DNA of 64,000 bases from Granulicella cerasi (lineage in GTDB: Bacteria > Acidobacteriota > Terriglobia > Terriglobales > Acidobacteriaceae): NCBI RefSeq assembly GCF_025685575.1, contig NZ_JAGSYD010000001.1, forward strand, positions 623,852 through 687,851, read 5' to 3'. The stretch's first letter is position 1; every line of letters begins with the position of its first letter. A program made the translations under genes and the position numbers. A model generated the notes under the pieces. It saw only the letters and a list, made by a program, of their open reading frames with translations, made no database searches and had not been told where the DNA came from. This document shows positions 5,422-51,664 of the stretch, piece after piece.

Positions 5422-5436
5422 ATCTGAAGCGCAAAT

Positions 5437-5469
5437 AGAACGGCCGCCTCGCGTAGAGGCGGCCGTTCT
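5437..5469. terminator. Bidirectional terminator, tex / NHL lipoprotein
   Basis: Arms 5437-5450 and 5456-5469 form a perfect 14-bp GC-rich stem (AGAACGGCCGCCTC) with a five-base loop, between two convergent genes. T-rich bases follow on the plus side (GTTTGT) and ATTTG on the minus side. Confidence 0.85.
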
Positions 5470-5487
5470 GTTTGTAGGCGTCGCGCT

Positions 5488-33150: not shown

Positions 33151-35952
33151 TTAGGGAACAAACATGAATTCGTTGCTGGAGAACATGGCCTGCAGCAGGT
33201 GTGCGAACGCCTTCTGTTGCGCGGCCTCCGGTGTGCTGCCTGTAGCGATGAGCTTGCTGCTCATCGTGCTGAGAAACTCTTCGCTGTGCTTGCGCTCTTC
33301 AGCGGCAGGGGCGCGGTTGTAGATGATCTCGAAGGCGGCGTCGAGACGCGCTTCGGGCTTTTTGTGCTCGTCATCGAGTGACTTGGCGAGCGCGTCCGAG
33401 CATTGCTTCGGGAACTTCGAGTTCATGAAGTAGAGCGCCTGCAGCGGCGTGAGGCTCTGCGAACGCATCTCCGTGCTGACGGCCGGGTCGGCGCCGTCGA
33501 AGAGCGTCATGTAGGGATGCTTCACCGTGCGCTGAATCATCATGTACACGGTGCGCTTGTTGTTCTCGTACTTCGGCAGGTCAGGCACGAAGGGGTTCTG
33601 CTCTTCCCAGTTCCACTCGCTCTGCGGTGGGAAAGGGAACGTGCTGCCAGGGGTGCGATCAAGCTGACCGGAGTCCGCGAGCAGCGTGTCGCGAATCTCT
33701 TCCGCATCGAGGCGCACCATCGTGTGCTTCCAGATGTATGCGTTGTCGGGATCGACCTCGTTGTTCGCGGAGTTCGCTTCGCCGGACAAGCGATAGGCGT
33801 GTGACAGCACCATCATGCGCTGCATCCGCTTTACCTGCCAGCCATTGCTCGTAAGCTGCGTTGCGAGGTAATCAAGCAGCGCCTGATTGCTGGGGGCAAC
33901 ACCGCGCGTGCCGAAGTTATTGGGTGTCGCGACGATGCCGCGGCCGAAGTGGCCTTGCCACAGACGGTTCACGAATACGCGCGCCGTCGTGGGGTTCTGG
34001 GCGCTCGCCACCCAGGCGGCGAGTTCGAGACGACCGCTGTCCTTGGTGGTTGCGGGCAGCGCGCCACCACCGAGTACCTGCAACTCGCCGCGCGGCACTT
34101 CATCGCCAAGCTGCAGCGGATCGCCATGCAGCATGATCTGCGCCTTCGCCGGTGCGGGCATATCGCTCACGGCGTAGGCCATCTCCGGGAACTGCGGCGC
34201 GCGCGCATAAAGGTTCATGCGACGACGCTGCAGTTGCGGCATCAGGTCGTCGTAGGTGCCGGGGAGGCGATTCACAGCAGCGATCGCGTCGGCGATGGGC
34301 TTGAGTTGCGCCTGGAACGCGACCTGCTCAGGCGCAGCTGCGTCCTGCGGATGGCGCAGCACCAGCTCCGACTGATAGCGCTTGCCATCGTTGCCCGCCT
34401 TGGGGAAGTGCGTGCTCTTGAAGATGCCAGCGAGCGCGTAGTAGTCCGAGGTGGGGATGGGGTCGAACTTGTGGTTGTGGCAGCGGGCGCAGCTCACGGT
34501 CATGCCGAGCATCGCGGAGCCAAGGTTGTCGACCGCATCGTAGATCTGCGCGTTGTCTGCAATGTTCGCGCCAGCGAGATAGCCGGTGGCGATCGTCTGC
34601 TTCCAGTGCTCATCGTCGTTGGCGGCGGGCATCAGGTCGCCAGCGAGCTGCTCCTTCAGGAAGCGATCGTAGGGCATGTCTTCGTTGAACGAAGCGATGA
34701 CCCAGTCGCGATACTTCACCGCCTGCGGGATGGGGAAGTCCCCAAGCGCGCCGGTGGTGTCAGCGTAGCGCACCACGTCGAGCCAGATGCGGCCCCAGCG
34801 CTCGCCATAGGCCGGCGACGCAAGCAGGCGATCGACTACATGCTCGTAGGCTTGCGGCGACTTGTCGGCGAGGAACGCCTTCATCTCTGCGGTCGTTGGC
34901 GGCAGGCCGGTAAGGTCGTAGGTGACGCGGCGCAGCAGCGTGCGCTTGTCGGCATCGCCGTTCGGCTTCAGGTGCTTTTCTTCGAGCTTCGCCAGTACGA
35001 AGCGGTCGATGTCGTTGTACGCCCACTTTGACGTCACATCGGGAACGGCAGGAGCCACGACTGGCATGAACGACCAGAACTTGCGGTCCTCCGCGCTCAC
35101 TGTCGTAACGGCGGGCTTGTCCGCGCTCGCGGGCCAGGGCAGGCCGTCTTTGATCCACTGATCGAGTGCGGCAACTTCCTCGGGCTTAAGCGGCGCGCGT
35201 GGCGGCATCTGCAAGCGCGGATCGGCGTAATGTACCGCGCTTGAAAGCGTGCTCAGCTCGGGGTGTCCCGGCACAACGACCGCACCATCTTTGCCGCCTT
35301 GCAGCAGCGCCTTACGCGAATCGAGGCGAAGGCCGCCTTTCTCCGCGCTGGCATGGCACATGTAGCACTTGTTCACCAGCACCGGGCGAACTTTGGCTTC
35401 AAAAAAAGCTTCCTGCTCAGCAGAAAGCGATGGGGAAGCGGATGGCGAGACAGGCTGTACGGGCGTGGCGGAAGCGATCTGCGCCGGTGTCGGCTTGCTG
35501 GCCGTTGCGCTTGCGGTCGTTGGAGCATCCGCAGGGGCGATCGGAGCGGCGCTCTCCTTGATCCAGCGATCGACGGCTGCAATGTCCTCGTCGCTCAGCT
35601 TGCCCTTCGGCGGCATCTGCAGGGTGTCGTCGGAGTAGTGGATCGCCTTGGAGAGAATGCTCTTCTCGGGGCTGCCAAAAACCACGGGCGATCCGCTATC
35701 GCCACCGGCAAGAATCTGCGGCACAGTGTCCATGCGGAATCCGCCAGCGTGCCCACCGTTCATATGACAACCGGAACAAGCGCGATCGAAGACAGGCTTC
35801 GCGGTCTGCTTGTAGAGGTCATCGGTCTGGGCAGCAGCGCTGTCGGCCGCAAGGCCGCAGGCAACAAGCAGTAAAGCCGCGCTCACATAGCGCGGAAGGA
35901 TAACTCTGGATACACGTCGGCTGCTCGCTGCCAAGGTAAGGCTCTCCTTCAT
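33151..35952 (-). CDS. PSD1/planctomycete cytochrome c protein (DUF1549/DUF1553)
   Basis: 933 residues, exported (VSAALLLVACGLAADSAAAQ). Two haem c motifs: CSGCH (Cys59, Cys62, His63) and CYMCH near 196; each is followed by a GG(H/L) and LxMPPxxxL segment that may supply the Met ligand (TLQMPPKGKLS, RLQMPPRAPLK). Then come DUF1549 (DIDRFVLAKLEEKHL, VDRLLASPAYGERWGR) and DUF1553 (RLELAAWVASAQNPTTARVF, LWQGHFGRGIVATPNNFG). A third possible CxxCH, CARCH near 495, lies between them. It heads the operon with DUF1501 and the hydrolase. The start codon is uncertain by a few residues. The role is unknown. Confidence 0.92.
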   Translation of the reverse strand: MKESLTLAASSRRVSRVILPRYVSAALLLVACGLAADSAAAQTDDLYKQTAKPVFDRACSGCHMNGGHAGGFRMDTVPQILAGGDSGSPVVFGSPEKSILSKAIHYSDDTLQMPPKGKLSDEDIAAVDRWIKESAAPIAPADAPTTASATASKPTPAQIASATPVQPVSPSASPSLSAEQEAFFEAKVRPVLVNKCYMCHASAEKGGLRLDSRKALLQGGKDGAVVVPGHPELSTLSSAVHYADPRLQMPPRAPLKPEEVAALDQWIKDGLPWPASADKPAVTTVSAEDRKFWSFMPVVAPAVPDVTSKWAYNDIDRFVLAKLEEKHLKPNGDADKRTLLRRVTYDLTGLPPTTAEMKAFLADKSPQAYEHVVDRLLASPAYGERWGRIWLDVVRYADTTGALGDFPIPQAVKYRDWVIASFNEDMPYDRFLKEQLAGDLMPAANDDEHWKQTIATGYLAGANIADNAQIYDAVDNLGSAMLGMTVSCARCHNHKFDPIPTSDYYALAGIFKSTHFPKAGNDGKRYQSELVLRHPQDAAAPEQVAFQAQLKPIADAIAAVNRLPGTYDDLMPQLQRRRMNLYARAPQFPEMAYAVSDMPAPAKAQIMLHGDPLQLGDEVPRGELQVLGGGALPATTKDSGRLELAAWVASAQNPTTARVFVNRLWQGHFGRGIVATPNNFGTRGVAPSNQALLDYLATQLTSNGWQVKRMQRMMVLSHAYRLSGEANSANNEVDPDNAYIWKHTMVRLDAEEIRDTLLADSGQLDRTPGSTFPFPPQSEWNWEEQNPFVPDLPKYENNKRTVYMMIQRTVKHPYMTLFDGADPAVSTEMRSQSLTPLQALYFMNSKFPKQCSDALAKSLDDEHKKPEARLDAAFEIIYNRAPAAEERKHSEEFLSTMSSKLIATGSTPEAAQQKAFAHLLQAMFSSNEFMFVP

Positions 35953-36264: not shown

Positions 36265-37302
36265 TTGAATCGACGTGCTTTTCTGAAGTTGTCGGCTGCG
36301 TCCGCGCTCTGCGCCGGGCCGCTGGCTGGTTGCCGTCGTCAACAGGTGAACCACATCGTCTGGGCGTTGGGGTGGATCCCCGACGTGGAATACGGCAACC
36401 TCTGGACCGCGCTCGATCGTGGGTTCTTTACGCAATCCGGCGCGCGTGTTGATTATTTTCCCGGTGGCCCGAACGCCCCGCAGCCGGTTGTGATGGTAGC
36501 GGCCGGGGAAGCCACACTCGGCGATGCTGAGTGGTTGCCGCTTACCGATGCCGTGCTGCAGGGCAATGACTTCGTCGTCATCGCCGCGCAGTTTCCCATT
36601 CTGCCGACGGGTCTGATCACGCTGCCGAAGCGCCCGATCCGCAAACCGAAGGACATGGTCGGCGCGACGTTTCTCGTGCAGGGCCCGAGCGAACGCGCTG
36701 AACTTGCTGCGACCTTCAGCCTGAACAAACTGCCGATGAATTACAAGATGGTGCCCGTCGGCTTCTCGCCCGAGGCGCTGCTCGAAGGCCAGGGTGACGC
36801 GTATTTCTGCTACATCACCAACCAGCCGCGCACGCTGGAGAAGATGGGGCTGGTGAAGGACAAGGACTTTTTCGTCACGCCCATCTATGACCTCGGCTAC
36901 CGCGTGCCGTCCTCGCTTCTCTTTGTGGAGCGGCGCATGATCCGCGATCATCGCGAGCAGCTCGTCGGCTTCCTCGAAGGCTTGTTGCTCGCACGCCAGG
37001 CGAACTTCGCCGACGTCACACTCGCGCCACGCCTTGCTGCAGAGCACTATGGCGGCGACCTCGGGCTCGACTACGAGCAGCAGCTTTCGTTGAACAAGGG
37101 CCAGTTGTTGCTCGAGCGCGAAGCCGGTCGTGAAGTGCCGTTCAGCTTCGGCGACGATGCGATCAAGACGCTTTATGCGGCGGCAGCTGCAACCGGGCGT
37201 ACGCATTTGCCGACACCCAACAAGCTCTTCGACCTCTCCATGCTCGAAGACGCGTACACCCGACTCAAGCAAAAGGGAGCTTTGCATGTCGCAAGTAGCT
37301 AG
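36265..37302 (+). CDS. Thi5/NMT1-like ABC substrate-binding lipoprotein
   Basis: 345 residues from TTG 36265. The N-terminus MNRRAFLKLSAASALCAGPL followed by AGC combines a twin-arginine-like start with a lipobox. The body is the Thi5/NMT1/SsuA-type periplasmic-binding fold: VWALGWIPDVEYGNLWTALD, MVAAGEATLGDAE, KPKDMVGATFLVQGPSERA and VPSSLLFVERRMIRDHREQL. Family members bind thiamine-pyrimidine precursors, riboflavin, sulfonates or other heterocycles. The 3' end overlaps the amidohydrolase start by 17 bases, so an operon with the ABC genes at 38697-40992 is clear. The ligand is probably the amidohydrolase substrate or product. Confidence 0.88.
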   Translation: MNRRAFLKLSAASALCAGPLAGCRRQQVNHIVWALGWIPDVEYGNLWTALDRGFFTQSGARVDYFPGGPNAPQPVVMVAAGEATLGDAEWLPLTDAVLQGNDFVVIAAQFPILPTGLITLPKRPIRKPKDMVGATFLVQGPSERAELAATFSLNKLPMNYKMVPVGFSPEALLEGQGDAYFCYITNQPRTLEKMGLVKDKDFFVTPIYDLGYRVPSSLLFVERRMIRDHREQLVGFLEGLLLARQANFADVTLAPRLAAEHYGGDLGLDYEQQLSLNKGQLLLEREAGREVPFSFGDDAIKTLYAAAAATGRTHLPTPNKLFDLSMLEDAYTRLKQKGALHVASS

Positions 37303-38677
37303 TCAGGTCAGGCAGAGCATCAGCCTGCTGATCCTCAACGCCGATGTTGTCTGTTTTGACGATGCAGACCGAGTCGAGCGTCGCGGCGCGATCGCTGTGG
37401 ATGGCAACACGATCATCTGGATCGGCAGTGCAGAAGAGGCGGCGACTCTCTACACGGCGGAGCAGACGATCGATGCCAGCAGCATGATTGCGATGCCCGG
37501 CTTCATCGATTGCCACGTGCACACGGCGCAGCAATTTCTGCATGGCAAGCTGCCAAGCGTTCGCCGCAAAGGTGAACTGCGCGCGCCAATGTGGCAGCGC
37601 TATCTCATTCCGTTCGAGAGCGGGCTCGAGCCGGAAGACGTCTACGCGAGCGGGCTTGCAGCGTACTCGGCGATGATCTCCAGCGGGACCACGTGCTTCC
37701 TCGAAGCCGGCGGCCCGTTCCCCGATGAGATGGGCCGCGCGGCGAATGACATTGGCATCCGCGGGCGCATCGCGATGGCGACCGTCGATGTTGAGGATGA
37801 CATTCCACCGCAGTCGCGCATGACTACCGCAGAAGCTCTGCGTCGCAGTGAAGAACTCGTGCTGCGCTGGAAGGAGCACCCGCGCGTGAACGCGTGGCTC
37901 TCCTTGCGGCAGTTGATGGTGAATACCGAAGAGCTTCGCTTCGGCATTCGCGATCTCTCGCACGCGCTCGATACGCCGATCCACACGCATCTTGCGGAGG
38001 GCACGTATGAGGTGGACTTCAGCATTCGCAAGTGGAACATGCGCTCGACCGAGTATCTCGAGAGCATCGGCTGCCTCGACCACTACGTCCACGCTGCGCA
38101 CTCGGTGTTGCTCAGCTTGAATGAGATGGACCTCTATGCGAAGCGCAATGTCTCTGCGTGTCACTGTTCGCTGAACAACTACACCATGGGTCGCCCACGT
38201 GTGCTGGAGATGATGCGTCGCGGCATCGCGATGGGCCTCGGCACTGATGGAGCAGCCACGCGCACGAGCCTTGATATGTTTCAAGTAGTGCACGGCGCAG
38301 TGCTCGGCCAGCAAGCGGTGAACGGCACGCCGTACCACGTTGATCCGCCGGTGACGTGCGAGCAGATGCTGAAGCAGGCCTTCCGCGGCGGTGCACGCGC
38401 GGCGCGTTTGGAGCGTGAGATCGGTACGCTCGAGGTTGGCAAGAAGGCGGACATCGTACTCGTTTCGACGAGCGACTACGACCAGTTCCCGGCGCTCGAT
38501 CCGGTGATCACTTTGGCGGAAAGCAGCGTAGGCCGCGACGTGCATACGGTCGTTGTCGACGGCCGCATCGTGATGCAGAACCGCAAGCTGCTCACGATGG
38601 ATCTCGAGCCGATGCGAGAGCGTGTCGCCGTGCAATACAAGACCATCATGGAGCGCTTCGATCGGGCGATCGCCTAA
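37286..38677 (+). CDS. Amidohydrolase/deaminase (TrzA/AtzB/SAH deaminase type), cytoplasmic
   Basis: 463 residues from ATG 37286, preceded by AAGGGAG. Metal-dependent amidohydrolase: PGFIDCHVHTAQQ (His77, His79), HTHLAEGTYEVD near 235, VHAAHSVLL near 272 and GLGTDGAATRTS near 317 with the catalytic Asp; composite-domain ends (DVVCFDDADRVERRGAIAV, GRIVMQNRKLL). There is no signal peptide. It is one of three related genes here; all share FESGL..EDVY, ISSGTTCFLEAGGP and DEMGRAA. Likely deaminates or hydrolyses a purine, pyrimidine or triazine-like ring imported by the neighbouring ABC system. Confidence 0.88.
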   Translation: MSQVASQVRQSISLLILNADVVCFDDADRVERRGAIAVDGNTIIWIGSAEEAATLYTAEQTIDASSMIAMPGFIDCHVHTAQQFLHGKLPSVRRKGELRAPMWQRYLIPFESGLEPEDVYASGLAAYSAMISSGTTCFLEAGGPFPDEMGRAANDIGIRGRIAMATVDVEDDIPPQSRMTTAEALRRSEELVLRWKEHPRVNAWLSLRQLMVNTEELRFGIRDLSHALDTPIHTHLAEGTYEVDFSIRKWNMRSTEYLESIGCLDHYVHAAHSVLLSLNEMDLYAKRNVSACHCSLNNYTMGRPRVLEMMRRGIAMGLGTDGAATRTSLDMFQVVHGAVLGQQAVNGTPYHVDPPVTCEQMLKQAFRGGARAARLEREIGTLEVGKKADIVLVSTSDYDQFPALDPVITLAESSVGRDVHTVVVDGRIVMQNRKLLTMDLEPMRERVAVQYKTIMERFDRAIA

Positions 38678-38696: not shown

Positions 38697-39458
38697 GTGG
38701 CCGCTATTGAACTGCAACACGTCAGCAAGACCTTCAGCCTTTCGCGCGGCAAAAACGTGCGTGCGCTCGAAGCGCTTGATCTGCAGATCGCCGACGGCGA
38801 GTTCATCGCGCTGCTCGGTCCTTCGGGCTGCGGCAAGAGTACGCTGCTGCACATGATCGCGGGCCTCGATGCTGCGAGCGAAGGCCAGGTGCTGGTTGGT
38901 GGTGAATCCCCCGCCGCACTGCAGCGCAAGCACGAGCTTGGCATCGCGTTTCAAGAGCACGCGCTGCTGCCGTGGCGCAGCGTGCAGAGCAATCTTGAGC
39001 TTCCATTTCAGATCGCAGGGCAAAAACCTGACAGCGCGCGCATCGCATCGCTCATCCAGCTCGTCGGCCTCAGCGGCTTTGAATCGGCTCGGCCTTCGCA
39101 GCTTTCCGGTGGCATGAAGCAGCGTGTCTCCATCGCCCGCGCGTTGTGCCTGCAGCCACGCGTGCTGCTGCTCGATGAGCCCTTCGGCGCGCTCGACCCC
39201 GTCACGCGACGCAGCATGAACCTCGAGCTACAACGCATCTGGAGCGAGCAGCGCATCACCACCGTGCTCGTGACGCACACGGTGGAGGAGGCGCTCTTCC
39301 TTGCTGACCGCGTGCTTGTGATGAGCGGCCGTCCGGGCCGTGTGCTGCGCGATGTGCGCGTACCCTTCGCGCGGCCTCGCTCTGCAGAGACGATGCGCGA
39401 TCCCGCATTCCACGCGCTTGCCGACGAACTCACACACCTGCTGGAGCCTGTGCAATGA
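38697..39458 (+). CDS. ABC transporter ATP-binding protein (SsuB/TauB/ThiZ type)
   Basis: 253 residues, GTG start with AAGGGAG upstream. Walker A GPSGCGKST near 42, Q-loop IAFQEHALLPW near 84, signature LSGGMKQRVSIARAL near 140, Walker B VLLLDEPFGALD near 160 and the H-loop VTHTVEEA near 194. It drives import through the two following permeases. Its stop overlaps the next ATG as ATGA. Confidence 0.95.
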   Translation: MAAIELQHVSKTFSLSRGKNVRALEALDLQIADGEFIALLGPSGCGKSTLLHMIAGLDAASEGQVLVGGESPAALQRKHELGIAFQEHALLPWRSVQSNLELPFQIAGQKPDSARIASLIQLVGLSGFESARPSQLSGGMKQRVSIARALCLQPRVLLLDEPFGALDPVTRRSMNLELQRIWSEQRITTVLVTHTVEEALFLADRVLVMSGRPGRVLRDVRVPFARPRSAETMRDPAFHALADELTHLLEPVQ

Positions 39459-40249
39459 AGACCTCGTCGTCTGCAAGCATCGACGTCGGCCGCCTGTGGC
39501 CACGCGAGAGCATGAACATGCTTGCGGCGCAGATCGTTGGCGTAGTGGTGCTGCTCCTGGCTTGGCAGTTCGCCGGCACACACGCCCTCGCGGGCAAGAC
39601 GCTGCCGCCGCTCACGGATGTGCTGCATATCTTCACGATCAGTTGGCGACGCGCGCTGTTGCTGCGCTCGGCTGCGTCGACGTTAGGCTCTGCGTTGATC
39701 GGTCTTGCGGCAGGATCGCTGCTCGGCATTGCGACAGCCATGTTGACGCGCCTGCTGCCGATGCTCGAACCCGGGCTTGATCGCCTCTCTGTCGTCGTCA
39801 ACGCGATGCCCGTCATCGCCCTTGGTCCGGTGCTCATCATCACCGCAGGTCGCGAGGCCACACCACCGCTCCTCGCCGCGGTGCCGGTGTTCTTCCAGAT
39901 GTATGTCGCGACGACTGCAGGCATCGCCGGTGCAGAAAAGACGACGCTGCAGTATCTCCGCGCGACCGGCGCATCGCATTGGACAACGTTGCTGCGCCTT
40001 GAGCTTCCTTCAGCATTGCCGACGCTCATCAGCGGCCTGAAGGTCTGCGTGACCACCGCGATGCTCGGCGCGATCGTGGGCGAATGGTTCGGTGCTGCAC
40101 GCGGCCTCGGCATCGTCATCCTCAACACGATGCAGAACTTCCAGATCCCGCTGCTGTGGGCGGCGGTGCTGATCACGGCGTCAATCGCGCTGCTCGGCTA
40201 TGTGCTGATGTCGATGGCCGAACGCTTCGTTTCGCGGAGGATGGCATGA
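39455..40249 (+). CDS. ABC transporter permease, first subunit
   Basis: 264 residues, BPD_transp_1 fold with about six helices, as in SsuC/TauC. The EAA-type loop is YLRATGASHWTTLLRLELPS near 166-185, which contacts the ATPase. ATGA overlap on both sides shows tight coupling. With the gene at 40246 it forms a heterodimeric channel, a less common arrangement for this family, which usually uses one permease. Confidence 0.93.
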   Translation: MKTSSSASIDVGRLWPRESMNMLAAQIVGVVVLLLAWQFAGTHALAGKTLPPLTDVLHIFTISWRRALLLRSAASTLGSALIGLAAGSLLGIATAMLTRLLPMLEPGLDRLSVVVNAMPVIALGPVLIITAGREATPPLLAAVPVFFQMYVATTAGIAGAEKTTLQYLRATGASHWTTLLRLELPSALPTLISGLKVCVTTAMLGAIVGEWFGAARGLGIVILNTMQNFQIPLLWAAVLITASIALLGYVLMSMAERFVSRRMA

Positions 40250-40992
40250 GGAAGCTCCGCCAACTCCTGAAGCAAAGCTGGGCGGTCGTGCTGTTGCTCG
40301 CGTTGTGGCAGCTTTGGGTTTCACTGTCGAACTACAACAGCATCGTCGTGGTTGCGCCGTTGCAGGTCGTGCACGATATCGTCACACATCCTCGCCTTTA
40401 TCTCTTGCCCACGTTATGGACGCTAGGATTCTCGCTGGGTGGCCTGGCCATCGGCATGACCGCAGGAGTGATGCTCGCCGTGTTCAGCTGGCGCTCGCGC
40501 TTGCTTGGCGGTGCATTGCAGGCTGGTTCGTTAGTGCTGCTTGCGACACCGGTGGTCTGCCTCATCCCGATCCTCGCGCGCATGTTCGGCTACACCAGCC
40601 GCACGGAGCTACTCACTGTCGCGCTGATGACCTTCTTCCCCGGCTTCGTTTACGGCGCGGCAGGCTTGCGTCGTTTGCCGCGCCGCACGGGTGAGTTCTT
40701 CCAAACACTCGCAGCGTCGTCGAACAAGCGGCTCCTGTTGCTCGCATTGCCATCGGCGATGCCCGACCTTGCAGTCGCGCTACGCGTCGGCACGGCGAGT
40801 TCTGTGCTCGTCACCGTCACTGCAGAGTACCTTATGCAAACCGGGGGCCTCGGCAATCTCTTCGCGGTGACCATGCAGGAGTTCAACCTGCGCCGCGCGC
40901 TCGGCGCGAGTATCGTTGCCATGGTGCTGTCGACAATCCTGTACGAACTCGCCAGCCACGCGGAGAAGCACATTCGCCTTCGCTTCCGATAG
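40246..40992 (+). CDS. ABC transporter permease, second subunit
   Basis: 248 residues from ATG 40246, preceded by CGGAGG and overlapping the previous stop by four bases. BPD_transp_1 helices with FFQTLAASSNKRLLLLALPS as EAA loop near 145-165 and GGLGNLFAVTMQEFNLRRA near 200. An in-frame extension to 40084 overlaps the first permease and is rejected. Last gene of the plus-strand operon; a terminator follows. Confidence 0.93.
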   Translation: MRKLRQLLKQSWAVVLLLALWQLWVSLSNYNSIVVVAPLQVVHDIVTHPRLYLLPTLWTLGFSLGGLAIGMTAGVMLAVFSWRSRLLGGALQAGSLVLLATPVVCLIPILARMFGYTSRTELLTVALMTFFPGFVYGAAGLRRLPRRTGEFFQTLAASSNKRLLLLALPSAMPDLAVALRVGTASSVLVTVTAEYLMQTGGLGNLFAVTMQEFNLRRALGASIVAMVLSTILYELASHAEKHIRLRFR

Positions 40993-41004: not shown

Positions 41005-41038
41005 AACAACGCCCGCCATCAGCCTGGCGGGCGTTGTT
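41005..41038. terminator. Bidirectional terminator between the convergent transport and hydrolase operons
   Basis: AACAACGCCCGCC (41005-41017) pairs with GGCGGGCGTTGTT (41026-41038) around an eight-base loop. It separates the plus-strand ABC operon and the minus-strand nucleoside-hydrolase operon. Confidence 0.9.
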
Positions 41039-41059: not shown

Positions 41060-41656
41060 CTACTCTCCATGCAGTTTCGCGCCGGCAAGCTTGCGCATGT
41101 AGTCACCCCACTTCGGGTCATAGCCTGCGATGCGGTTCTCGAGCTTCGCGCCGTTATCCCACCAGTGGTCGGGCGTGCGGCCCATCTCCACACCACGACG
41201 CGTGTGAATGTCGACCATGAAGTCCTTCACATCGACAGCACGCTCGCCGCGCTCTACGACTTCGCGCGTCCAGTTGGAAAGCTCCATCGACATGTTGTCC
41301 TTCGGCGCGGTCGCGAGCAGGCGCACCGCATGCGCGCAGTAGATCCAACGATCGCCGGGGTCCGCCATGCGACCTGCCTGCTGGTAGAGCGCATTGATCA
41401 CCGCAGGAGCCGTGGGCATGCCGAGGCCAACATCTTCCGTTGCGATGATTTCCAGGCGGCGCCACAACACTTCCTCCGCATCCGGGCCGGAAGAGAAGAA
41501 CTCAAACGCTGCGATCGCGGCGTCTTCCACCCAACCGCGACGAATGCTCTTCTGCAGCACGCTGCGCAGCTCGTCGATGGGAAATCCGCGAAGGCTGGTC
41601 GTGCGGCTCCATGTGTCTTCGCTCTGATAGTTGCGGGGCTTGGGTTGCTGGTCCAT
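41060..41656 (-). CDS. Stand-alone RarA/MgsA C-terminal-domain protein
   Basis: 198 residues from ATG 41656 (MDQQPKPRNYQSEDTW). The core resembles the C-terminal helical region of the clamp-loader-like ATPase RarA/MgsA: LRSVLQKSIRRGWVEDAAIA, then a variable helix, RLEIIATEDVGLGMPTAP, YCAHAVRLLATAPKDN. In RarA these correspond to ALhKSiRGsDpDAAlYwl, RLvriASEDVGLaDP and AviYLA.APKSN. No AAA+ ATPase domain is present. The tail (GRTPDHWWDNGAKLENRIAG) is unlike RarA's. It is the last gene after two nucleoside hydrolases, 17 bases downstream. A role there is unexplained; it may bind another protein or a nucleic acid. Confidence 0.72.
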   Translation of the reverse strand: MDQQPKPRNYQSEDTWSRTTSLRGFPIDELRSVLQKSIRRGWVEDAAIAAFEFFSSGPDAEEVLWRRLEIIATEDVGLGMPTAPAVINALYQQAGRMADPGDRWIYCAHAVRLLATAPKDNMSMELSNWTREVVERGERAVDVKDFMVDIHTRRGVEMGRTPDHWWDNGAKLENRIAGYDPKWGDYMRKLAGAKLHGE

Positions 41657-41673: not shown

Positions 41674-42843
41674 CTACTTTCGTGGTTCGTGATGTGCTGC
41701 CATCGGCATGGTCATCAGGTTGAGAAACATTTGCGTGAAGCGGGCGGTGTCGAAGTCCCACGCCACGTCTGCGACGCGAGCCTCCGGCGGCGGAATGGGC
41801 TTCTGCCGCTTGGGCTCAGGCTTGTCCGGCCATGCAATGCCGGCGTAGCCCTTGGGCACTTCATCCCAATACCAACTCGCGCCGTAGCTCATGCCCGGCA
41901 TCGTGTCGATATCGACATAGAAGCGCTTCCAACTGGTGATGATCGACGGATCGATCAAGTAGGCCGCGAGCAACTCATCGGGCATGCGAAACCACTGCTG
42001 TGGTTTGCCTTCGCGATGCGGTTTCATCACGAGTTGCTCGTAGAGTTCGGCCTCGGCCTTGTTCTGGCCTTTAGAAATTGTCTCAGCCATCTCGGGTGTC
42101 TTATGTAATTTCTCGGCGACATCGACGGTGATGAGCGTGAGCTTCGGCCACGGCGCATGCAGCACAAGCTGGGCGCTCTCGGGGTCGTAGACGACGTTGA
42201 CTGTCTTCGGCTGCATGCCCGGGCTTGTGCCCATGAAGACGATCTCTTTCGTCAACGCAACGATGCTCGGATCAAGGCTGATGGCGAGCGCGACGTTGGT
42301 CAGCGCGCCGCCGCAGTAGAGCGTTACCTCATGCGGATACTTGTGTACCTGCTCGATGATGAACTCTGCTGCATGGCCTGCGTGAGGCTGTAGCTTCGGC
42401 ATGCCACCATACGGTGGTGTGACCACATCGGGCCCGGGACTGTACTCGCCGTAGGCTCCGAGAAACGGATCGGTGCGCGTGCCTCCGTAGAGATGCGTCA
42501 GCCGCACCGGCGTGTAGCGCGACTGCACCAGCGGAAACTCTGCACCCATGTACACCGGCACGTCAGGGCGATGCAGATCTTCCAACAGCTTCAGCACATC
42601 GGCTGTCTCCTGCTTCAACCATCCATTGCCGGTCACCACCGTTACGCCGAGCACATCAATGTTCGGCGCGTTGAGCAGCATCACCAGCGGGTCTTCGTTG
42701 TCGCCAATGATGCCGTCAGTGTCCTGGTCGAAGATCACCTTGCGCGCAGGGCCTTGCGCGTGCGCGGTAGAAGAAAGAAGCATCGTGAGCGCAAGCGTGC
42801 CTGCGCTCACGATGTGGAGACAACGTTGTGCGACGCGCATCAC
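41674..42843 (-). CDS. Exported nucleoside hydrolase (IUNH family), copy 1
   Basis: 389 residues with signal peptide (IVSAGTLALTMLLSSTAHAQ). The IUNH fold hydrolyses the N-glycosidic bond of nucleosides using Ca2+. The N-terminal acidic cluster is FDQDTDGIIGDNED (Asp39, 41, 43, 48, 51), an expanded form of the usual DxDxGxDD. VTVVTGNGW, LYCGGALTNVALAI and EIVFMGTS match the fold. The C-terminal HDP motif is replaced by PDELLAAYLIDP (Asp289 kept, His lost). Its start overlaps the stop of copy 2. Likely periplasmic and acting on a nucleoside-like ribosyl compound. Confidence 0.85.
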   Translation of the reverse strand: MMRVAQRCLHIVSAGTLALTMLLSSTAHAQGPARKVIFDQDTDGIIGDNEDPLVMLLNAPNIDVLGVTVVTGNGWLKQETADVLKLLEDLHRPDVPVYMGAEFPLVQSRYTPVRLTHLYGGTRTDPFLGAYGEYSPGPDVVTPPYGGMPKLQPHAGHAAEFIIEQVHKYPHEVTLYCGGALTNVALAISLDPSIVALTKEIVFMGTSPGMQPKTVNVVYDPESAQLVLHAPWPKLTLITVDVAEKLHKTPEMAETISKGQNKAEAELYEQLVMKPHREGKPQQWFRMPDELLAAYLIDPSIITSWKRFYVDIDTMPGMSYGASWYWDEVPKGYAGIAWPDKPEPKRQKPIPPPEARVADVAWDFDTARFTQMFLNLMTMPMAAHHEPRK

Positions 42844-43931
42844 TTGGTCAACGCCTCGATGTAGGGTTTCGGTGCAGGCTTTGAAAGCAGATCAATGAGG
42901 AAGTTCTGCAGGCGCGGCAGATCGACATCCATCTGCGCGTGCACCTTGTTCAGGAAATACGCAGGCTTGGCCTCTTCGCTGTACGTCAGCGTGTCGCCGT
43001 AGTTGGGGCCAGCCATCGTGTCGACGTCCATGTACGTCACCTGCTCGCGCGTTACGACCGCAGGATCGAGCATCCACACCGCAGGCAGTTCGTCCCACAG
43101 ATAGTTGATCGTCACAGGACGGCGGAAGTACTTCGTGATGTATTCGGCTGCGGGGCTGTGCGCTTTGGCGAGCCCATCGAGCACCTCGGGGTCAGGACGC
43201 GTCTTCAGAGAAATATCAATGGTCGTATCGGTGATCTTCTTCCACGGCGCGCGCAGCACCATGCTGGCTGCCTCGGCGTCGAACCAGAAGTTGAACTCGT
43301 GGCGCGGCGCGTTCGCCCACTCGGGCTTATCGGTGATCGGCGCAAGACTGCCGCCCATGATGACGAGTTCCTGCGCAAGCTCCGCAAAGTGCGGATCGAG
43401 ACGGCAAGCGATGGCGATGTTCGTCAGCGGACCTGCGCCGTAGATCGTCACCTGGTGCGGATACTTGTGCACCATGCGAATCATGAAGTGCGCGGCATCT
43501 TCCTCCGCAGGCTTCGCGGTGGGGGCGCCTTCGCGCAGCGCCGGAACGAAGTCCCACGGCTTCTCCGTGTTGTGCTCAGAGAACGCGCCTTCAAAATGTG
43601 CCTTGCCGTAGAGCTTCGCCTGCAGGCGCGTGCTTTCTACGGTGCGTAGCAGCGGGAACGCGGCGCCGGGATAGACCTTCACATCCGTGCGCCCGGTCAC
43701 TTCAGTGAGTCTCAGCGCGTGCTGCACTTCCTGGTCGCGCCAATTGTCGCCCGTGACGACGGTGATGCCGAGCAGATGCACCTGCGGCGACTGCAGAAAC
43801 ACGAGCAGGCTCATCATGTCGGAGCCTCCCGGCCCTGACGCATCCTGATCGGCAATGACGTAGCGCTGCGCGTGAGCGGCAACACTCACGCACAACGCTG
43901 CGCAGGCAAACAACTTCTGGAACATCTTCAT
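42840..43931 (-). CDS. Exported nucleoside hydrolase (IUNH family), copy 2
   Basis: 363 residues from ATG 43931 (AGAGGT six bases upstream) with signal peptide MKMFQKLFACAALCVSVAAH. The acidic cluster is IADQDASGPGGSDMM (Asp28, 30, 38), again expanded. TIYGAGPLTNIAIACRLDP and ELVIMGGS are family marks. The C-terminal motif reads LWDELPAVWMLDP (Asp280), without the usual His. Divergent from copy 1 but with the same odd DEL pattern, so the pair forms a distinct subgroup and could work on one substrate or as a heteromer. Four-base overlap with copy 1. Confidence 0.85.
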   Translation of the reverse strand: MKMFQKLFACAALCVSVAAHAQRYVIADQDASGPGGSDMMSLLVFLQSPQVHLLGITVVTGDNWRDQEVQHALRLTEVTGRTDVKVYPGAAFPLLRTVESTRLQAKLYGKAHFEGAFSEHNTEKPWDFVPALREGAPTAKPAEEDAAHFMIRMVHKYPHQVTIYGAGPLTNIAIACRLDPHFAELAQELVIMGGSLAPITDKPEWANAPRHEFNFWFDAEAASMVLRAPWKKITDTTIDISLKTRPDPEVLDGLAKAHSPAAEYITKYFRRPVTINYLWDELPAVWMLDPAVVTREQVTYMDVDTMAGPNYGDTLTYSEEAKPAYFLNKVHAQMDVDLPRLQNFLIDLLSKPAPKPYIEALTK

Positions 43932-43941
43932 GTGCGACCTC

Positions 43942-45441
43942 TTAGCCACCCTGCGTTACCGCGATGGCCTTCTCGTAGTTCGAGATGATGCGGGGATAGC
44001 GTTCCTTCACGCTCGCGCGCATCTTCGCTACATCCAGCGTAAGGAATTCGCGGTTCTTCATCACGATCTTTCCGTCCACGATCGTGTGGCGCACGTGGTG
44101 GCCGACGCAGTTCTGGCCGAGCGTGATCTGCGGATCCATGCTAGTGAACTGATCGTAGTCGTCATGGCCGACGAGCACGATGTCGGCGAGCTTGCCAAGC
44201 TCGAGCGAACCGGTCTTCGTGCCGAGATGCGAGGCTGCTGCGCCACCACGGCACGCCTGCTTCAGCATCGCCGCATAGCTGATCGGGCTGCTGGCGTGGA
44301 AGGGCATGCCGTAGCCGATCGTCTGGCCCATCACTGCGTAGTGTGAGACCTGGAAGAGGTCGAGCGTGCCACGCGAACCGGGGCCGTCGGAGCCAAGGCC
44401 GACGCGGATGCCCTGACGCATCATGTCCAACATGCGATGCGGCGCGAGGTAGTAGTTGTGGAACGCGCAGTGCGCCACCGACGCGTCATGCTTGGCGTAG
44501 AGGTCGACGTCGCTCGGCGTGAGCAGCACCGAGTGCGCGCAGTGCATGCGCTTGTTGAAGATGCCGATCTTCGCGAAATATTCGGGCGGGCGGCAGTTAT
44601 AGTTTTCGACGGTGTAGTCGACCTCGTACGTGCCTTCGGAGAGATGCGTATGAATCGTCACATCAAGCTCTTCAGCGAGGTGCGACATGTTGATGCGCAA
44701 CTCCTCGGTGTTCACCACGATCTGTCGCAGCGAGAGCCAGGCGCTGACGCGATCGTTGTTCTTCCAACGCTTGACCAGCGCTTCGTTTTCCTTCAGCGCC
44801 TGCGAGGTCGTCATGATGTGCGACTTCGGCAACGCGCCGCCTTCGCCGTCCATGTCGCAGGTGTTCAGCGAAATGCGTCCGCGGATGCCGACCTCCATCG
44901 CGGCCCGCCCCATCTCATCAGGATGCGGTCCACCAGCTTCAAGGAAGCAGGTCGTACCGCTGGAGATCATCGACGTGTAGCCGACAAGCCCGCTGTTGTA
45001 AACGTCTTCGGCCTGCAGCCCGCTCTCGAACGGGATGAGAGTCTTCTTCCAGCCCGGCCCTTTGCGTCGTGTCGTGCGGTGCACGCCGCGCAGGAACTGC
45101 TGCGCCGTGTGATAGTGCGTGTCTGTCATGCCGGGCATCGCAATCAGACCGTCAGCCTTCAGCGTCTCCTTCGCGGAGTACATCGTGGCCGCGTCGCTTG
45201 CTTTGCCGAGCCAAACGATCTGGTTGCCCTTCACCGCAATCGCGCCGTCTGCAATCACGGTGTCCTTGTCATCGAAGGTCACGATGTCGCAACCCATGAT
45301 GAGCAGATCGCAGTTGGTCGGAGGAGCGAGCGCACCGAGAACTTCAGCACGGCTAACAGCAGGGGCGACGGCCACCGCAGCGAGTGCGCTGGCGGTGAGA
45401 AAGTCGCGACGAGTAAGGCCCGAGTTCTTTGGTGCGGTCAT
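43942..45441 (-). CDS. Tat-exported amidohydrolase/deaminase
   Basis: 499 residues; strong GGAGG before ATG 45441. Twin-arginine signal: LTRRDFLTASALAAVAVAPA. Metal motifs: PGMTDTHYHTAQQ near 104, IHTHLSEGTYEVD near 270, MHCAHSVLLTPSD near 305 and GLGSDGPGSRGT near 350. It resembles the cytoplasmic copies at 37286 and 45531 but carries an export signal, so it should act in the periplasm beside the nucleoside hydrolases. Tat export implies that it folds with its metal before export. Ten bases separate it from nucleoside hydrolase copy 2. Confidence 0.9.
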   Translation of the reverse strand: MTAPKNSGLTRRDFLTASALAAVAVAPAVSRAEVLGALAPPTNCDLLIMGCDIVTFDDKDTVIADGAIAVKGNQIVWLGKASDAATMYSAKETLKADGLIAMPGMTDTHYHTAQQFLRGVHRTTRRKGPGWKKTLIPFESGLQAEDVYNSGLVGYTSMISSGTTCFLEAGGPHPDEMGRAAMEVGIRGRISLNTCDMDGEGGALPKSHIMTTSQALKENEALVKRWKNNDRVSAWLSLRQIVVNTEELRINMSHLAEELDVTIHTHLSEGTYEVDYTVENYNCRPPEYFAKIGIFNKRMHCAHSVLLTPSDVDLYAKHDASVAHCAFHNYYLAPHRMLDMMRQGIRVGLGSDGPGSRGTLDLFQVSHYAVMGQTIGYGMPFHASSPISYAAMLKQACRGGAAASHLGTKTGSLELGKLADIVLVGHDDYDQFTSMDPQITLGQNCVGHHVRHTIVDGKIVMKNREFLTLDVAKMRASVKERYPRIISNYEKAIAVTQGG

Positions 45442-45530: not shown

Positions 45531-46931
45531 TTAGTGCGGCGTATGGTTCTTGTCGAGCGCGACGTCGTAGCGCTGCATGATCGAGGTGTACTGCTCCTGC
45601 ACATGGCGGCGCATTGGAGCGAGGTCGAAGCTGATGAACTCACGGTTCTTCATCACCACGCGGCCGTCGATGACGACCGTGCGCACATCGCGTCCATTGC
45701 AGTTTTGCGAGAGCGTGATGACGGGATCGACCACAGGGAACTGGTCGAAGTCCGTCTTCGCGACGAGCACGACGTCGGCAAGTTTGTTCACTTCGAGCGA
45801 GCCGATCTTGTCGGCCATGCGCGCAGCGCGAGCGCCGTTGCGGCAGGCGAGCTTCAACATCTTGTCGTAGCCGATCGGCGCGCCGGAGTGGAAGAGCGTG
45901 CCGTACTCGATCGTCTGGCCGAGCACCGCAAAGTGCGCGACCTCAAACATATCGAGCGTGCATCGGCCACCAGGGCCGTCTGTGCCGAGGCCGCACGCGA
46001 TGTCGCGGCGGATCATCTCGTAGAAGCGCTGCGGGCCAACGCCGTAGTTGCCGAAGGAACAATGACACGCAGAGACCTTGCGCGCGGCATAGAGATCGAG
46101 TTCTTCATTCGTCAGCAACACCGAGTGCGCAGCGTGAATGTGCTCATGCAGCGAGCCGATCGAGTCCATGTACGCCGGTGGTCGCTTGCCGTACTCGTTC
46201 ACGGTGAAGTCGACTTCGTACGTGCCTTCGGAGAGATGTGTGTGAATCGGCACGTTCAGCTCTTTCGCAAGGTGCGTCATGCCGATGCGAAGCTCTTCGG
46301 TGTTCACGATGATCTGCCGCAGCGAAAGCCATGCGCCCACGCGATCGTTGTCCTTCCAACGCTTCACCAGCGCTTCGTTTTCCTTGAGCGCCTGCGCGGT
46401 GGTCATGCGGTAGTTGGACGGCAAGGTGTCGTCCATGTCCATCGTGTTCAGCGAGACGAAGCCGCGGATGCCCACGTCCATCGCCGCGCGGCCCATCTCA
46501 TCGGGATGAGGTCCGCCGGCTTCAAGGAAGCACGTTGTGCCGACCGAGATCATCGACGTGTAGCCCGCAATCGCGCTGCAATACACGTCTTCCGGCGTCA
46601 GCCCGCTCTCGAAGGGAACGTAGTAGTTTTTCCAGTGCGGGGCCTTCGATGCATGTTTGCGATGGATCGAGGCGAGCTTGCCGCGTAGCAGCTGCTGGCC
46701 TGTGTGATAGTGGGCGTCGATCAGACCGGGCATCGCGATCATGCCGCTGCCGTTGATCGTTTCCTTCGCGTTGTAGAGAGCGGCGGCCTCGCTTGCTTTT
46801 CCGATCCACGCGATCTTCTTGCCCTGCACGGCGATGGCGCCATCGAGCAGTACGGTGTCGTGATCGTCGAAGGTAACGACATCACAGCCGGTGATCAGAA
46901 GGTCTATGGGCGTAGGGGCAAACGCATGCAT
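45531..46931 (-). CDS. Amidohydrolase/deaminase, cytoplasmic copy
   Basis: 466 residues, ATG 46931 with GAGGATC upstream, no signal peptide. Motifs: PGLIDAHYHTGQQ near 75, IHTHLSEGTYEVD near 238, HAAHSVLLTNEE near 273 and GLGTDGPGGRCT near 318. It is closest in text to the Tat-exported copy (FDDHDTVLLDGAIAVQGKKI, KRWKDNDRVGAWLSLRQIIV). Leading gene of the minus-strand operon; about 90 bases lie between it and the exported copy. Substrate as uncertain as for the others; a nucleobase-like ring is the best guess. Confidence 0.88.
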   Translation of the reverse strand: MHAFAPTPIDLLITGCDVVTFDDHDTVLLDGAIAVQGKKIAWIGKASEAAALYNAKETINGSGMIAMPGLIDAHYHTGQQLLRGKLASIHRKHASKAPHWKNYYVPFESGLTPEDVYCSAIAGYTSMISVGTTCFLEAGGPHPDEMGRAAMDVGIRGFVSLNTMDMDDTLPSNYRMTTAQALKENEALVKRWKDNDRVGAWLSLRQIIVNTEELRIGMTHLAKELNVPIHTHLSEGTYEVDFTVNEYGKRPPAYMDSIGSLHEHIHAAHSVLLTNEELDLYAARKVSACHCSFGNYGVGPQRFYEMIRRDIACGLGTDGPGGRCTLDMFEVAHFAVLGQTIEYGTLFHSGAPIGYDKMLKLACRNGARAARMADKIGSLEVNKLADVVLVAKTDFDQFPVVDPVITLSQNCNGRDVRTVVIDGRVVMKNREFISFDLAPMRRHVQEQYTSIMQRYDVALDKNHTPH

Positions 46932-47114: not shown

Positions 47115-48008
47115 TTAGAACGAATACTGATTGCAGACTTCGCGTGCGATGGCGACGGCGGCGCGGATGATCGGGGAATCATCCTCTGTGCGTGTGGCGA
47201 TGCCGATCTCCGAACAGATATCGTCTTCCAGCAGCTCGCGTACGGCAACGCCTTCGACGGCGGAGTTAACGACCATGCTGGGAAGAATCGCGATGCCTTC
47301 GCCGGCCGCGACCAGCGCGGGGCCAAGGTACATCTCATCGATCGTGTTCGACACCATCGGCTGAAAACCCGCCTTGATACATCGCTCGATGATGCGGTCG
47401 TGAAAGCCGGGCGCCCACTTGCGGCCGTAGAGAATGAAGCGTTCCTCCTGCAGATCGGAGAAGCGGATCTTCTCCTGCGCGGCGAGTGGATGCGACTCGG
47501 GCAGACAGATGACCAGCGGCTCATGATGCGCGGGGATGATGCGCAGGCCCTTGGCTTCCACCGGCAAACGCACGAAGCCGATATCGAGCGCAGAGAGTTG
47601 CAACTCTTCCACGGTGACGCTTGTGTGCAACGAGAAGAGATCGAGCTTCACATGCGGGCATGTGCGGTGGAAGCGCGTCGTGATGTTTGGCACGATCTCG
47701 CGCGAGGCCGAAGGTGGAAAGCCAAAGCGCAGGCGCACGGTTTGTTCGTTGGCCGCGCGTTTCGCGGCGAGCGCGGCTTCCTGCGCCGTGGCGAGCGTGT
47801 TCTTTGCGCCATCGAGGAAGGCTTCTCCTGCGCGCGTCAGCGCCACGGTGCGGCGGCTGCGATCAAAAAGCAAAACGCCTAGCTCTTGCTCCAGGCGTTG
47901 AATCTGTGCGGTGATGGCTGGCTGAGACAAATGCAGCGTACTCGCCGCCTGGACGAAGCTTCGCTTCTCCGCGACGGTGACAAACGCGTTGAGCGTTCTC
48001 AGTTCCAA
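47115..48008 (-). CDS. LysR-type transcriptional regulator
   Basis: 297 residues, TTG start at 48008 with GGGAGG upstream. Winged helix-turn-helix at about 1-60 (LRTLNAFVTVAEKRSFVQAA, LHLSQPAITAQIQRLEQELG, VLLFDRSRRTV), then the linker helix and an effector-binding domain (LRFGFPPSASREIVPNITTR, LDIGFVRLPV, ERFILYGRKWAPG). It is of the CynR/CatR/BenM-like branch, which bind small carboxylates or aromatics. Divergent from the TonB receptor and directly upstream of the minus-strand hydrolase operon, so it probably controls one or both. Confidence 0.93.
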   Translation of the reverse strand: MELRTLNAFVTVAEKRSFVQAASTLHLSQPAITAQIQRLEQELGVLLFDRSRRTVALTRAGEAFLDGAKNTLATAQEAALAAKRAANEQTVRLRFGFPPSASREIVPNITTRFHRTCPHVKLDLFSLHTSVTVEELQLSALDIGFVRLPVEAKGLRIIPAHHEPLVICLPESHPLAAQEKIRFSDLQEERFILYGRKWAPGFHDRIIERCIKAGFQPMVSNTIDEMYLGPALVAAGEGIAILPSMVVNSAVEGVAVRELLEDDICSEIGIATRTEDDSPIIRAAVAIAREVCNQYSF

Positions 48009-48460
48009 ACTAACCTCCCGGGGCTAGGGGCAGTCCATTGGCGCAAATATCTATCAACTGTGGCAAGAAGTCAATGGACAGTCGTACCACCACATCGCGC
48101 GACGACCGGATAACGCCCATGTATTTCAGATTTGTAAAAAATGATTGGACGCGATCCGGGGTGCATGTTTGAATCGAAATCAACTTGCAATAGTTACCCC
48201 TTTCATCAGGTCGCCTTCGAGCCGGTTTCTTGAGCCACTCAACCGGGACGCGGGATTGGTGTAGGCAAAACCAAGTCCACGAACTCGGTTCAACCTGACG
48301 GTGTTTTCGCTGTATCGCAGCATTTTTTCTGTTGTCTCTTGCTTTTGTCTGCCTGACTTATGAGTGGATCGCGAGACTCATAGGCTGGTGCGTCCTCCAC
48401 CGTTATTCGCCGGACTATTTCTGCTATCGCCGGCTCGCTAAGTTTGATGGAGAACTGCTT
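48009..48460. promoter_or_regulatory. Intergenic region upstream of the TonB receptor
   Basis: 452 bases between the divergent LysR gene and the receptor. An open frame extends the receptor upstream to 48332 but reads as non-coding. No terminator or aptamer was recognised. AAATGATTGGAC at 48139 recurs, inverted, at 36083. A long leader for the receptor mRNA seems likely. Confidence 0.4.
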
Positions 48461-51400: not shown

Positions 51401-51664
51401 CAGCTCGATGCCCGCCTCACCAAGAAGTTCCCGATCAAGGCAGCACAGACGGTCGAGCTGAGCTTCGAGGCGATCAACGCGCTCAACCACATCCGCTACA
51501 CCTCCGTGAACCAGACGGGTTACACCGCCAACGGTGCCGCGGGTACGATCACCGCTGCTTCCAACGCATGGCCCTCGGGTTATACGCGCGGCACGGCGTC
51601 GGGCGGCTTCCCGGACGGCACGAACGCTCGCCGTGCGCAGGCCTCGGTGCGCTACACCTTCTAA
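48461..51664 (+). CDS. TonB-dependent receptor with carboxypeptidase-regulatory domain
   Basis: 1067 residues from ATG 48461 (GGAG eight bases upstream). Signal region RRIPYLAGGLALSVAMTASG, then a CarboxypepD_reg/Cna-like domain (LGALNGVVRDPSGAVVPGAD, VIIVTAPGFG). The plug domain shows NLPINGRRVDQFALLSPGV, FLQDGVDVTNQW, FRTEISGYSAEFGRGAGGVV. A long outer-membrane beta-barrel closes with aromatic-ended VRYTF. This architecture is the typical Acidobacteriota form. It imports large or scarce solutes across the outer membrane using TonB energy. Its place beside the LysR gene and the hydrolase cluster suggests it brings in their substrate; no SusD partner is present. Confidence 0.94.
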   Translation: MSSPVRDLTAAFCRRIPYLAGGLALSVAMTASGQSLAGLGALNGVVRDPSGAVVPGADVELVNKNLGVDRHLKSTSDGLYLFPSLNPANGYVIIVTAPGFGTAKTLPLSVHVGEQLAVPMTLSVSSSESVTVSDATAPVVDTAKTENSALINQEQITNLPINGRRVDQFALLSPGVVQDGTSGEISFHGIPSGNAFLQDGVDVTNQWFVQNAGGSAVLSNISQDAVQEFRTEISGYSAEFGRGAGGVVNTITKSGTNMFHGGAFWFFRNRTLNATDLFSKRTVNGVSTAFNPPEYRHQYGGTVGGPIIKDKLFFFASYEGTKRNFPIQSTILSSTVLDANGQLITGAAQGCDTTVATAAQCAAVQTYLNRFHNATVPRSLQQNGGFGRFDWRQSEKSTWTFTGNVLNYSGNHVGVSSAAVTDGSGTSAADYNVSTHIRNGHISNTYLVNTRMVNEFRLGINKDRRFQGLPNDLLPPGTLRSALSVGPVSNLGVSVNALPNVQPSETRYTFDDNFSITKGKHLIKVGTSLAYLRSYENGIYKGPGQYTYNNFTTWAQDLTPLATDPLAGRHYAGFTQSIGHPITRITIRDYDFFAQDQWQITQKLLLNLGVRYDYATYTQPPTPAFAATDSRVGPINQPKLNFSPRIGFSWSEFGGKTVVRGNYGIFFNRLPGASITRLQQLGGTVRKSLPTITPSVSYAPTYPAVLTDAALSTIPSSSVNTGFTKPGLSTPYVQEAQLGIEQELTRNTSFSVGYLWARGLKFLQRSDLNIGAPTGSETYTVTELNGSTHQLVLPTYLATGKRYSQYAQVLQIDNSGRIWYDGLLMELKHRASRFLEGSINYTWSKAQDLTQGAASSNYYFSDTTDTLFNGAFPVNGRSGYSYEKGISAEDVRHRVVIAGIAQLPTDMFHGDLKKQAFGGWQLSPIFVWATPQHVNSVLTISSSNSAWYQSGSITGLGGESPAYNRVPFLPVSNLPLGTTAQLDARLTKKFPIKAAQTVELSFEAINALNHIRYTSVNQTGYTANGAAGTITAASNAWPSGYTRGTASGGFPDGTNARRAQASVRYTF

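Follow-up and report, generated by a model that had tools for sequence, protein, structure and literature searches.

A stand-alone RarA C-terminal domain in bacterial solute-uptake loci and beside a glycosyltransferase gene in phages

What is known of RarA's C-terminal domain comes mainly from its place in a replication protein, and a gene in Granulicella cerasi raises the question of what this domain does when it is encoded on its own, among genes for the uptake of small molecules. Conservation of RarA/WRNIP1 extends from bacteria to humans, and its molecular role has been described as unsettled (PMC8735627). We analysed a stretch of 64,000 nucleotides of G. cerasi DNA (the window), in which the initial annotation had pointed out a RarA/MgsA C-terminal domain detached from its ATPase and placed in a catabolic operon. 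Both the stand-alone domain and its position in a catabolic or uptake locus were confirmed. The protein, here called SOLO, and its relatives provide a direct handle on what the domain can do by itself.

SOLO has the fold of the RarA C-terminal domain

SOLO is encoded on the minus strand (41060..41656, with an ATG start codon at 41656) and comprises 198 residues; inspection by eye showed no signal sequence. The KSIR, ATEDVGL and APKDN patterns that had suggested RarA are indeed there, at residues 36-39, 72-78 and 117-121. The initial annotation had proposed a profile search, a structure prediction and a search for a full-length rarA in the same genome, and all three gave positive results. The Pfam profile MgsA_C (PF12002) matched SOLO with an E-value of 6.7e-10 and 39.5 bits, above the cut-off of 27, which places it in this superfamily; it was the sole Pfam domain up to E 10, and no AAA+ ATPase was found, as had been claimed. 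The top six matches in a PDB sequence search were tails of RarA/MgsA-type AAA ATPases, the best being 2r9g (E 3.5e-6). An AlphaFold model built on 74 aligned sequences had a mean pLDDT of 92.3, and all 18 of its Foldseek matches at E <= 0.001 were RarA-type tails or whole MgsA, with 2r9g again the best (E 3.4e-6). VIA-align superposed the model on 2r9g over 122 residues (Z 17.3, rmsd 2.1); clamp-loader subunits, matched via their helical part, were the next structural group, at Z about 9. By both Foldseek and VIA-align, the modelled SOLO has the RarA C-terminal fold. The N-terminal AAA+ ATPase that characterizes RarA, MgsA and WRNIP1 is absent, and the gene upstream of SOLO encodes a nucleoside hydrolase. 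A second gene, a full-length rarA (442 aa), lies on another contig of the same genome (G000:C6).

SOLO is under purifying selection, with dN of 0.11-0.31 against dS of 0.77-2.34 in six pairwise comparisons. Its PHROG matches were phrog_33349, labelled 'ATPase' (residues 23-183, E 1.3e-8), and phrog_16866, labelled as unknown (residues 34-176, E 1.5e-7). The PADLOC anti-phage defence models gave zero families matching SOLO at E up to 1, and a defence-system identity was dropped on this ground.

Residues shared with RarA and residues switched from it

We compared 85 aligned SOLO rows with 30 RarA rows. Eight residues are common to both (S32, K36, R39, R67, E74, D75, K119 and T152), and the window protein has the KSxR, R, ED and K residues that are conserved in RarA. 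Because they are kept without the ATPase, these common residues appear to serve the domain itself. About ten positions differ sharply between SOLO and RarA. Four are switched with a conservation of at least 0.96 on both sides, namely R40 (N in RarA), E52 (R), D149 (N) and G155 (M), and at two more the RarA side is less uniform, W65 (A in RarA, 0.80) and H151 (P in RarA, 0.77). D149, H151 and G155 occur in all 85 SOLO rows, while the 30 RarA rows have N at 0.97, P at 0.77 and M at 0.97; the RarA motif NxPTxxM is thus missing from SOLO and replaced by DxHTxxG (DIHTRRG in the window). The window protein carries the family set Q35, K36, R39, R40, E52, R67, E74, D149, H151 and G155. Ten rows from the bacterial clade described below keep all the common and switched residues, save S32 in one row; at R121 and D124, two further residues widespread in the family, the Acidobacteria have N and M. 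The residues switched from RarA suggest a new site, and the conserved residues of SOLO may cluster in space to form one shared pocket.

SOLO therefore shares its fold and eight residues with the RarA/MgsA C-terminal domain (PF12002; 2r9g, 3pvs, 3bge, 3ctd and 8g28), but differs from RarA/MgsA in lacking the AAA+ ATPase, in its DxHTxxG motif, in the changes at R40, E52 and W65, and in forming a separate clade.

The SOLO locus of Granulicella cerasi

SOLO is the last of six minus-strand genes. They begin with a LysR-type regulator (47115..48008; PF00126/PF03466) and continue with two TRZ/ATZ-like amidohydrolases, AH1 (45531..46931; profile search) and AH2 (43942..45441; PF01979), the latter having a twin-arginine-like N-terminus by eye and, as its best NCBIfam profile, 5'-deoxyadenosine deaminase, under that profile's cut-off. 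Two IU_nuc_hydro nucleoside hydrolases follow, IUNH1 (42840..43949; PF01156, E 5.3e-54) and IUNH2 (41674..42843; PF01156, E 5e-51), each with a signal peptide by eye. The stop of IUNH2 is 17 nt from the start of SOLO, which accords with the claim that SOLO directly follows exported nucleoside hydrolase genes. Divergent from the LysR gene, the plus strand encodes an outer-membrane beta-barrel protein of the TonB-dependent-receptor type (48332..51664; PF25183, E 3.8e-103).

From the other side, a plus-strand operon converges on SOLO. It encodes an NMT1/THI5-like ABC substrate-binding protein (SBP, 36265..37302; PF09084, E 3.5e-19), another TRZ/ATZ-like amidohydrolase (AH3, 37286..38677; profile search), an ABC transporter ATPase (38697..39458), whose best NCBIfam profiles are SaoA and the nitrate type, both below cut-off, and two permeases, A (39455..40249; PF00528) and B (40240..40992; PF00528). 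A 13-bp perfect inverted repeat with a loop of 8 (41005..41038), read by eye and unlisted by the repeat scan, sits between the converging 3' ends of SOLO and permease B and is possibly a terminator shared by both operons. The host operon of SOLO in the window is thus of a known type, that of the NMT1/THI5-type ABC operons with TRZ/ATZ aminohydrolases and IUNH; it differs from others of this type in having a RarA-tail protein as its constant non-transport part. A large planctomycete-type cytochrome protein of the PSCyt1/PSCyt2/PSD1 architecture (33151..35952) adjoins the transporter operon, and a homologue of it was also seen near SOLO in two other loci (L005 and L109).

SOLO accompanies the importer in Acidobacteriaceae

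Among 300 genomes of the same family, Acidobacteriaceae, SOLO was found in eight. One of these (G503) holds a remote match (31-42%), with no other window gene nearby in the 8.8 kb read, and SBP is present in exactly the other seven. The linkage of SOLO is the same in these seven genomes, which belong to two genera; because the six Granulicella carriers are related, the seven-genome match between SOLO and SBP corresponds to fewer independent events. A phylum-wide search of 247 genomes at E 1e-8 detected SOLO in the window's own genome only.

Seven distinct loci were read (the window, L003, L004, L005, L105, L106 and L109; L104, L107 and L108 are repeats of L003, L004 and L005). The ATPase, both permeases and SBP lie close to SOLO in all of them but L105, whose contig ends and whose SBP gene was located on a different contig. 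No LysR gene was detected in L003 or L106. The nucleoside hydrolases are absent beside SOLO in two of the seven loci (L004 and L109), and the best IUNH2 match in those genomes is a 41-42% paralogue elsewhere in the genome; orthologues of IUNH2 (75-88%) occur in four of the six other carrier genomes. AH3 is likewise present in four of these six and went unmatched in G371 and G451 at E 1e-40, so neither IUNH2 nor AH3 is constant. Given their absence beside SOLO in L004 and L109, with a paralogue as the best IUNH2 match there, the nucleoside hydrolases were rejected as obligatory partners of SOLO. The specific tie to them in the initial annotation is not supported, and its question about a constant IUNH neighbour of the homologues has the answer no. 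The constant part of the locus is instead the importer: among the 13 window proteins tested, transport proteins aside, only SOLO tracks it in all seven genomes.

Relatives in other bacteria and on plasmids

Plasmids of Cetobacterium and Enterococcus carry a SOLO relative between an RpiR/SIS regulator and a PTS EIIC protein that an NCBIfam match above cut-off assigns to the lactose/cellobiose family. An insertion sequence separates the relative from EIIC in E. faecium DO, and in Cetobacterium a TRZ/ATZ-like amidohydrolase adjoins the regulator. The Subdoligranulum relative comes after genes for a histidine kinase and a response regulator and then for a solute-binding protein and two ABC permeases; on a faecal contig, genes for an ABC permease and a solute-binding protein precede the relative, and one for an AraC-type ligand-binding protein comes after it. 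No single substrate type is common to the bacterial loci, and few independent bacterial contexts were found, in searches whose genome sets did not extend to Bacillota or Fusobacteriota. The relatives from Acidobacteria and from the PTS and sugar-type ABC loci form one clade, with a support of 100/97 in the first tree and 100/99 in a later one. An IMG/VR scan with five members of this bacterial clade gave 48 pattern matches, none of which was confirmed.

Other plasmids hold further relatives. One on a Bradyrhizobium plasmid (L009, 8980..9534) belongs to a phage-like region with a TIR-domain gene nearby, and a remote one on a haloarchaeal plasmid (L094, 5875..6666) stands a few genes after those for a GDP-mannose dehydratase and a nucleotide-sugar dehydrogenase.

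Phage relatives are linked to a glycosyltransferase gene

The wider SOLO family was seen mostly in phages and viral contigs of IMG/VR. In an alignment-based scan, 184 of 224 pattern matches proved to be relatives; 80 were kept, a set chosen partly with patterns that cover some of the SOLO-conserved residues. These 80 ORFs are 177-322 aa long, all but two of them (78/80) at 255 aa or less. None matched the ATPase part of the G. cerasi genome's own RarA, which did match two separate ORFs near phage SOLO genes. In phage locus L019, an AAA+ gene (4153..5001; E 1e-4 to the RarA ATPase part) overlaps the start of SOLO (4998..5558), an arrangement that, on sequence, looks like a RarA split into two genes. 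Some phage members are remote, for instance the SOLO of L403, which had no Pfam match at E 0.001.

A TET-associated glycosyltransferase (TAGT, PF20691) is encoded near phage SOLO, usually upstream; the identity of the TAGT group was confirmed with Pfam for two members and later for two more. It was found in 30 phage loci by clustering, in 58 of the 80 kept loci with a local profile, and in 32 of 50 records with the Pfam profile, these 50 having been submitted out of the 80. As a control, 240 loci were fetched by three large-terminase groups, whose identity was confirmed by profile, and the dropping of 24 loci under 6 kb left 216. TAGT was present in 11 of the 13 terminase loci with SOLO (the contigs of 7 of these 13 were already in the first SOLO set) and in 0 of the 203 without it. 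In one of the two SOLO-positive loci lacking TAGT (L199), a TAGT gene lies just beyond the stretch read.

The reverse test gave a similar picture, with SOLO in 147 of 157 loci fetched by TAGT, although these sets include close relatives and first-set contigs under new names. For the first TAGT group, SOLO was present in all 79 newly named loci, 26-120 bp downstream of TAGT in 72 and 406-794 bp downstream in 7; for the second it was present in 68 of 78, and in 51 of 51 where at least 2.5 kb could be read downstream. Eight of the ten TAGT loci without SOLO have 0-336 bp of downstream sequence, and the other two have 2286 bp (L525) and 1851 bp (L526). The pairing is not universal, since Streptococcus phage Javan291 has a TAGT (24% identical) with no annotated SOLO-like neighbour.

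The phage gene groups typically run ParB-like, TAGT, SOLO, often ahead of terminase. Among the 203 terminase-matched loci that lack SOLO, 79 have a ParB-like gene as well, and a ParB-like protein was therefore rejected as a specific partner. Other neighbours, from simple longest-ORF calling that yields some false ORFs (e.g., in L055), include a UDP-glucose dehydrogenase, an NAD-epimerase, a PIG-L deacetylase and WbqC. With the TAGT, ParB and terminase groups excluded, 130 neighbour representatives were chosen and 127 scanned; Mom and a DNA methylase each appeared once, and AAA was matched by 3 of the 127. A TET/JBP dioxygenase was detected in none of the 50 phage records, and the control genomes likewise gave zero. 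In T-even-like phages a TAGT has been described as likely to add a second glucose to glucosylated cytosine (PMC13390438). No TAGT was found among the window ORFs or in the bacterial-clade loci examined.

Origin of the bacterial clade

SOLO and RarA are separated with a support of 100/100 (12 RarA and 40 SOLO rows), and, as judged from their sequences, the members of the SOLO family are stand-alone RarA-tail domains distinct from RarA. In the first tree RarA joined one viral row with weak support (82/39). In the maximum-likelihood tree the bacterial clade is nested within viral rows, and a branch with 98/91 support joins it with 19 of them. An alternative with bacterial SOLO next to RarA was not rejected (p-AU 0.317). 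A transfer from phage to bacterium is the likely origin of the bacterial clade; because the maximum-likelihood tree nests this clade in viral rows but the p-AU is 0.317, a phage origin is favoured, short of proof.

What SOLO may do

Our preferred reading, to which we give a probability of roughly 45%, is that SOLO has put the fold of the RarA tail to a new use, the processing or, less likely, the sensing of a sugar- or nucleoside-like solute taken up by the cell. In the bacterial clade SOLO would be the cytosolic working part of a solute-uptake locus. An ABC or PTS importer would bring the compound into the cell, where SOLO would bind it through the residues kept from RarA (K36, R39, R67, E74, D75 and K119) in a pocket completed by residues changed from RarA (R40, E52, W65, D149 and H151). 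SOLO would then process the compound or, less probably, sense it. In phages, the same domain would work with TAGT, a predicted sugar-adding enzyme. We favour this reading because SOLO sits in same-strand groups of transport and regulation genes in Enterococcus and Subdoligranulum, because it co-occurs with the importer in Acidobacteriaceae, because most loci already have regulators, and because sugar chemistry surrounds the phage relatives. Together these observations suggest that a replication-derived domain was reused for sugar or nucleoside chemistry. We infer both the type of ligand and that SOLO is an enzyme and not a binding protein. A nucleoside or N-glycoside as the substrate in Acidobacteria is a guess, made because nucleoside hydrolases and deaminase-like amidohydrolases are nearby, and the TAGT link reaches bacterial SOLO by homology only, since the bacterial-clade loci have no TAGT. 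A bolder and rather unlikely version holds that a helical domain of the clamp-loader-collar type became a small all-alpha enzyme of glycosyl or nucleoside chemistry that was used twice: once with the glycosyltransferase, in phage gene groups that probably sugar-modify DNA bases, and once at the core of bacterial uptake operons, as their catabolic enzyme. In that case the pocket residues that SOLO has in common with RarA would hint at an unrecognised ligand site in the RarA tail.

The initial annotation had offered a new ligand or a regulator, and while the first is retained as a plausible role, the second stays as a rival. SOLO could be a non-catalytic regulator or adaptor that binds a ligand, the transporter or a regulator, and so tunes uptake or transcription; we regard this as the most serious alternative, though a tentative one. 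No enzymatic activity is known for the C-terminal domain of RarA, and the clamp-loader subunits, as the next structural group, also fit such a role, as does the description of RarA as a DnaX-like protein acting as a tetramer (PMC8735627). Most loci, however, already carry a LysR, an RpiR, a response regulator or an AraC-type ligand-binding protein, and the D, H, E, R and K residues that stay invariant from phages to bacteria are more in keeping with a chemical site than with a protein interface that shifts.

It is improbable that SOLO keeps a DNA-linked role, binding DNA ends, SSB or the host RarA or clamp loader to modulate replication, and is a chance resident of the operon. Homology to RarA would agree with it, as would the many phage relatives a few genes upstream of terminase genes and the overlapping AAA+ gene of L019, but the low frequency of AAA among the remaining phage neighbours speaks against it, and it leaves unexplained both the co-occurrence with SBP and the PTS and ABC loci of other phyla. 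That most relatives are in viral contigs, and that the maximum-likelihood tree places the bacterial clade among viral rows, might also suggest that SOLO is left over from a phage, or a mere passenger, with no function in the bacterial cell. This is hardly credible and already disfavoured: dN is well under dS, the core residues are kept, the linkage is the same across seven genomes and two genera, and the IMG/VR scan with bacterial-clade members confirmed no match.

Relation to known families and annotations

The domain family is already known through Pfam and the PHROGs. Among the literature matches listed, none dealt with an MgsA_C protein that stands alone, with its clade in uptake operons or with a TAGT-SOLO pair; the pair may have been noticed earlier, in older work on phage TET/TAGT systems. 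phrog_33349 and phrog_16866 are phage families whose phage relatives are usually linked to TAGT, whereas the window gene is not. The phage TAGT (PF20691) groups have the same domain as SOLO in a nearby gene, and SOLO marks the partner gene of many phage TAGT genes; the bacterial-clade loci and the window differ in being without TAGT.

Phage genes named 'AAA-ATPase' can be without an ATPase domain. Relatives of about 206 aa in Microbacterium phages are annotated in this way (L010, 5028..5648, and other records). Along its whole length the L010 protein can be aligned with SOLO, and it has no match to the RarA ATPase part, and the label on proteins of this type looks carried over from RarA. In the BFVD, proteins of the giant viruses Pithovirus, Pandoravirus, Orpheovirus and Cedratvirus match the SOLO model, one of them labelled DUF4326 and the weaker ones named glycosyltransferase.
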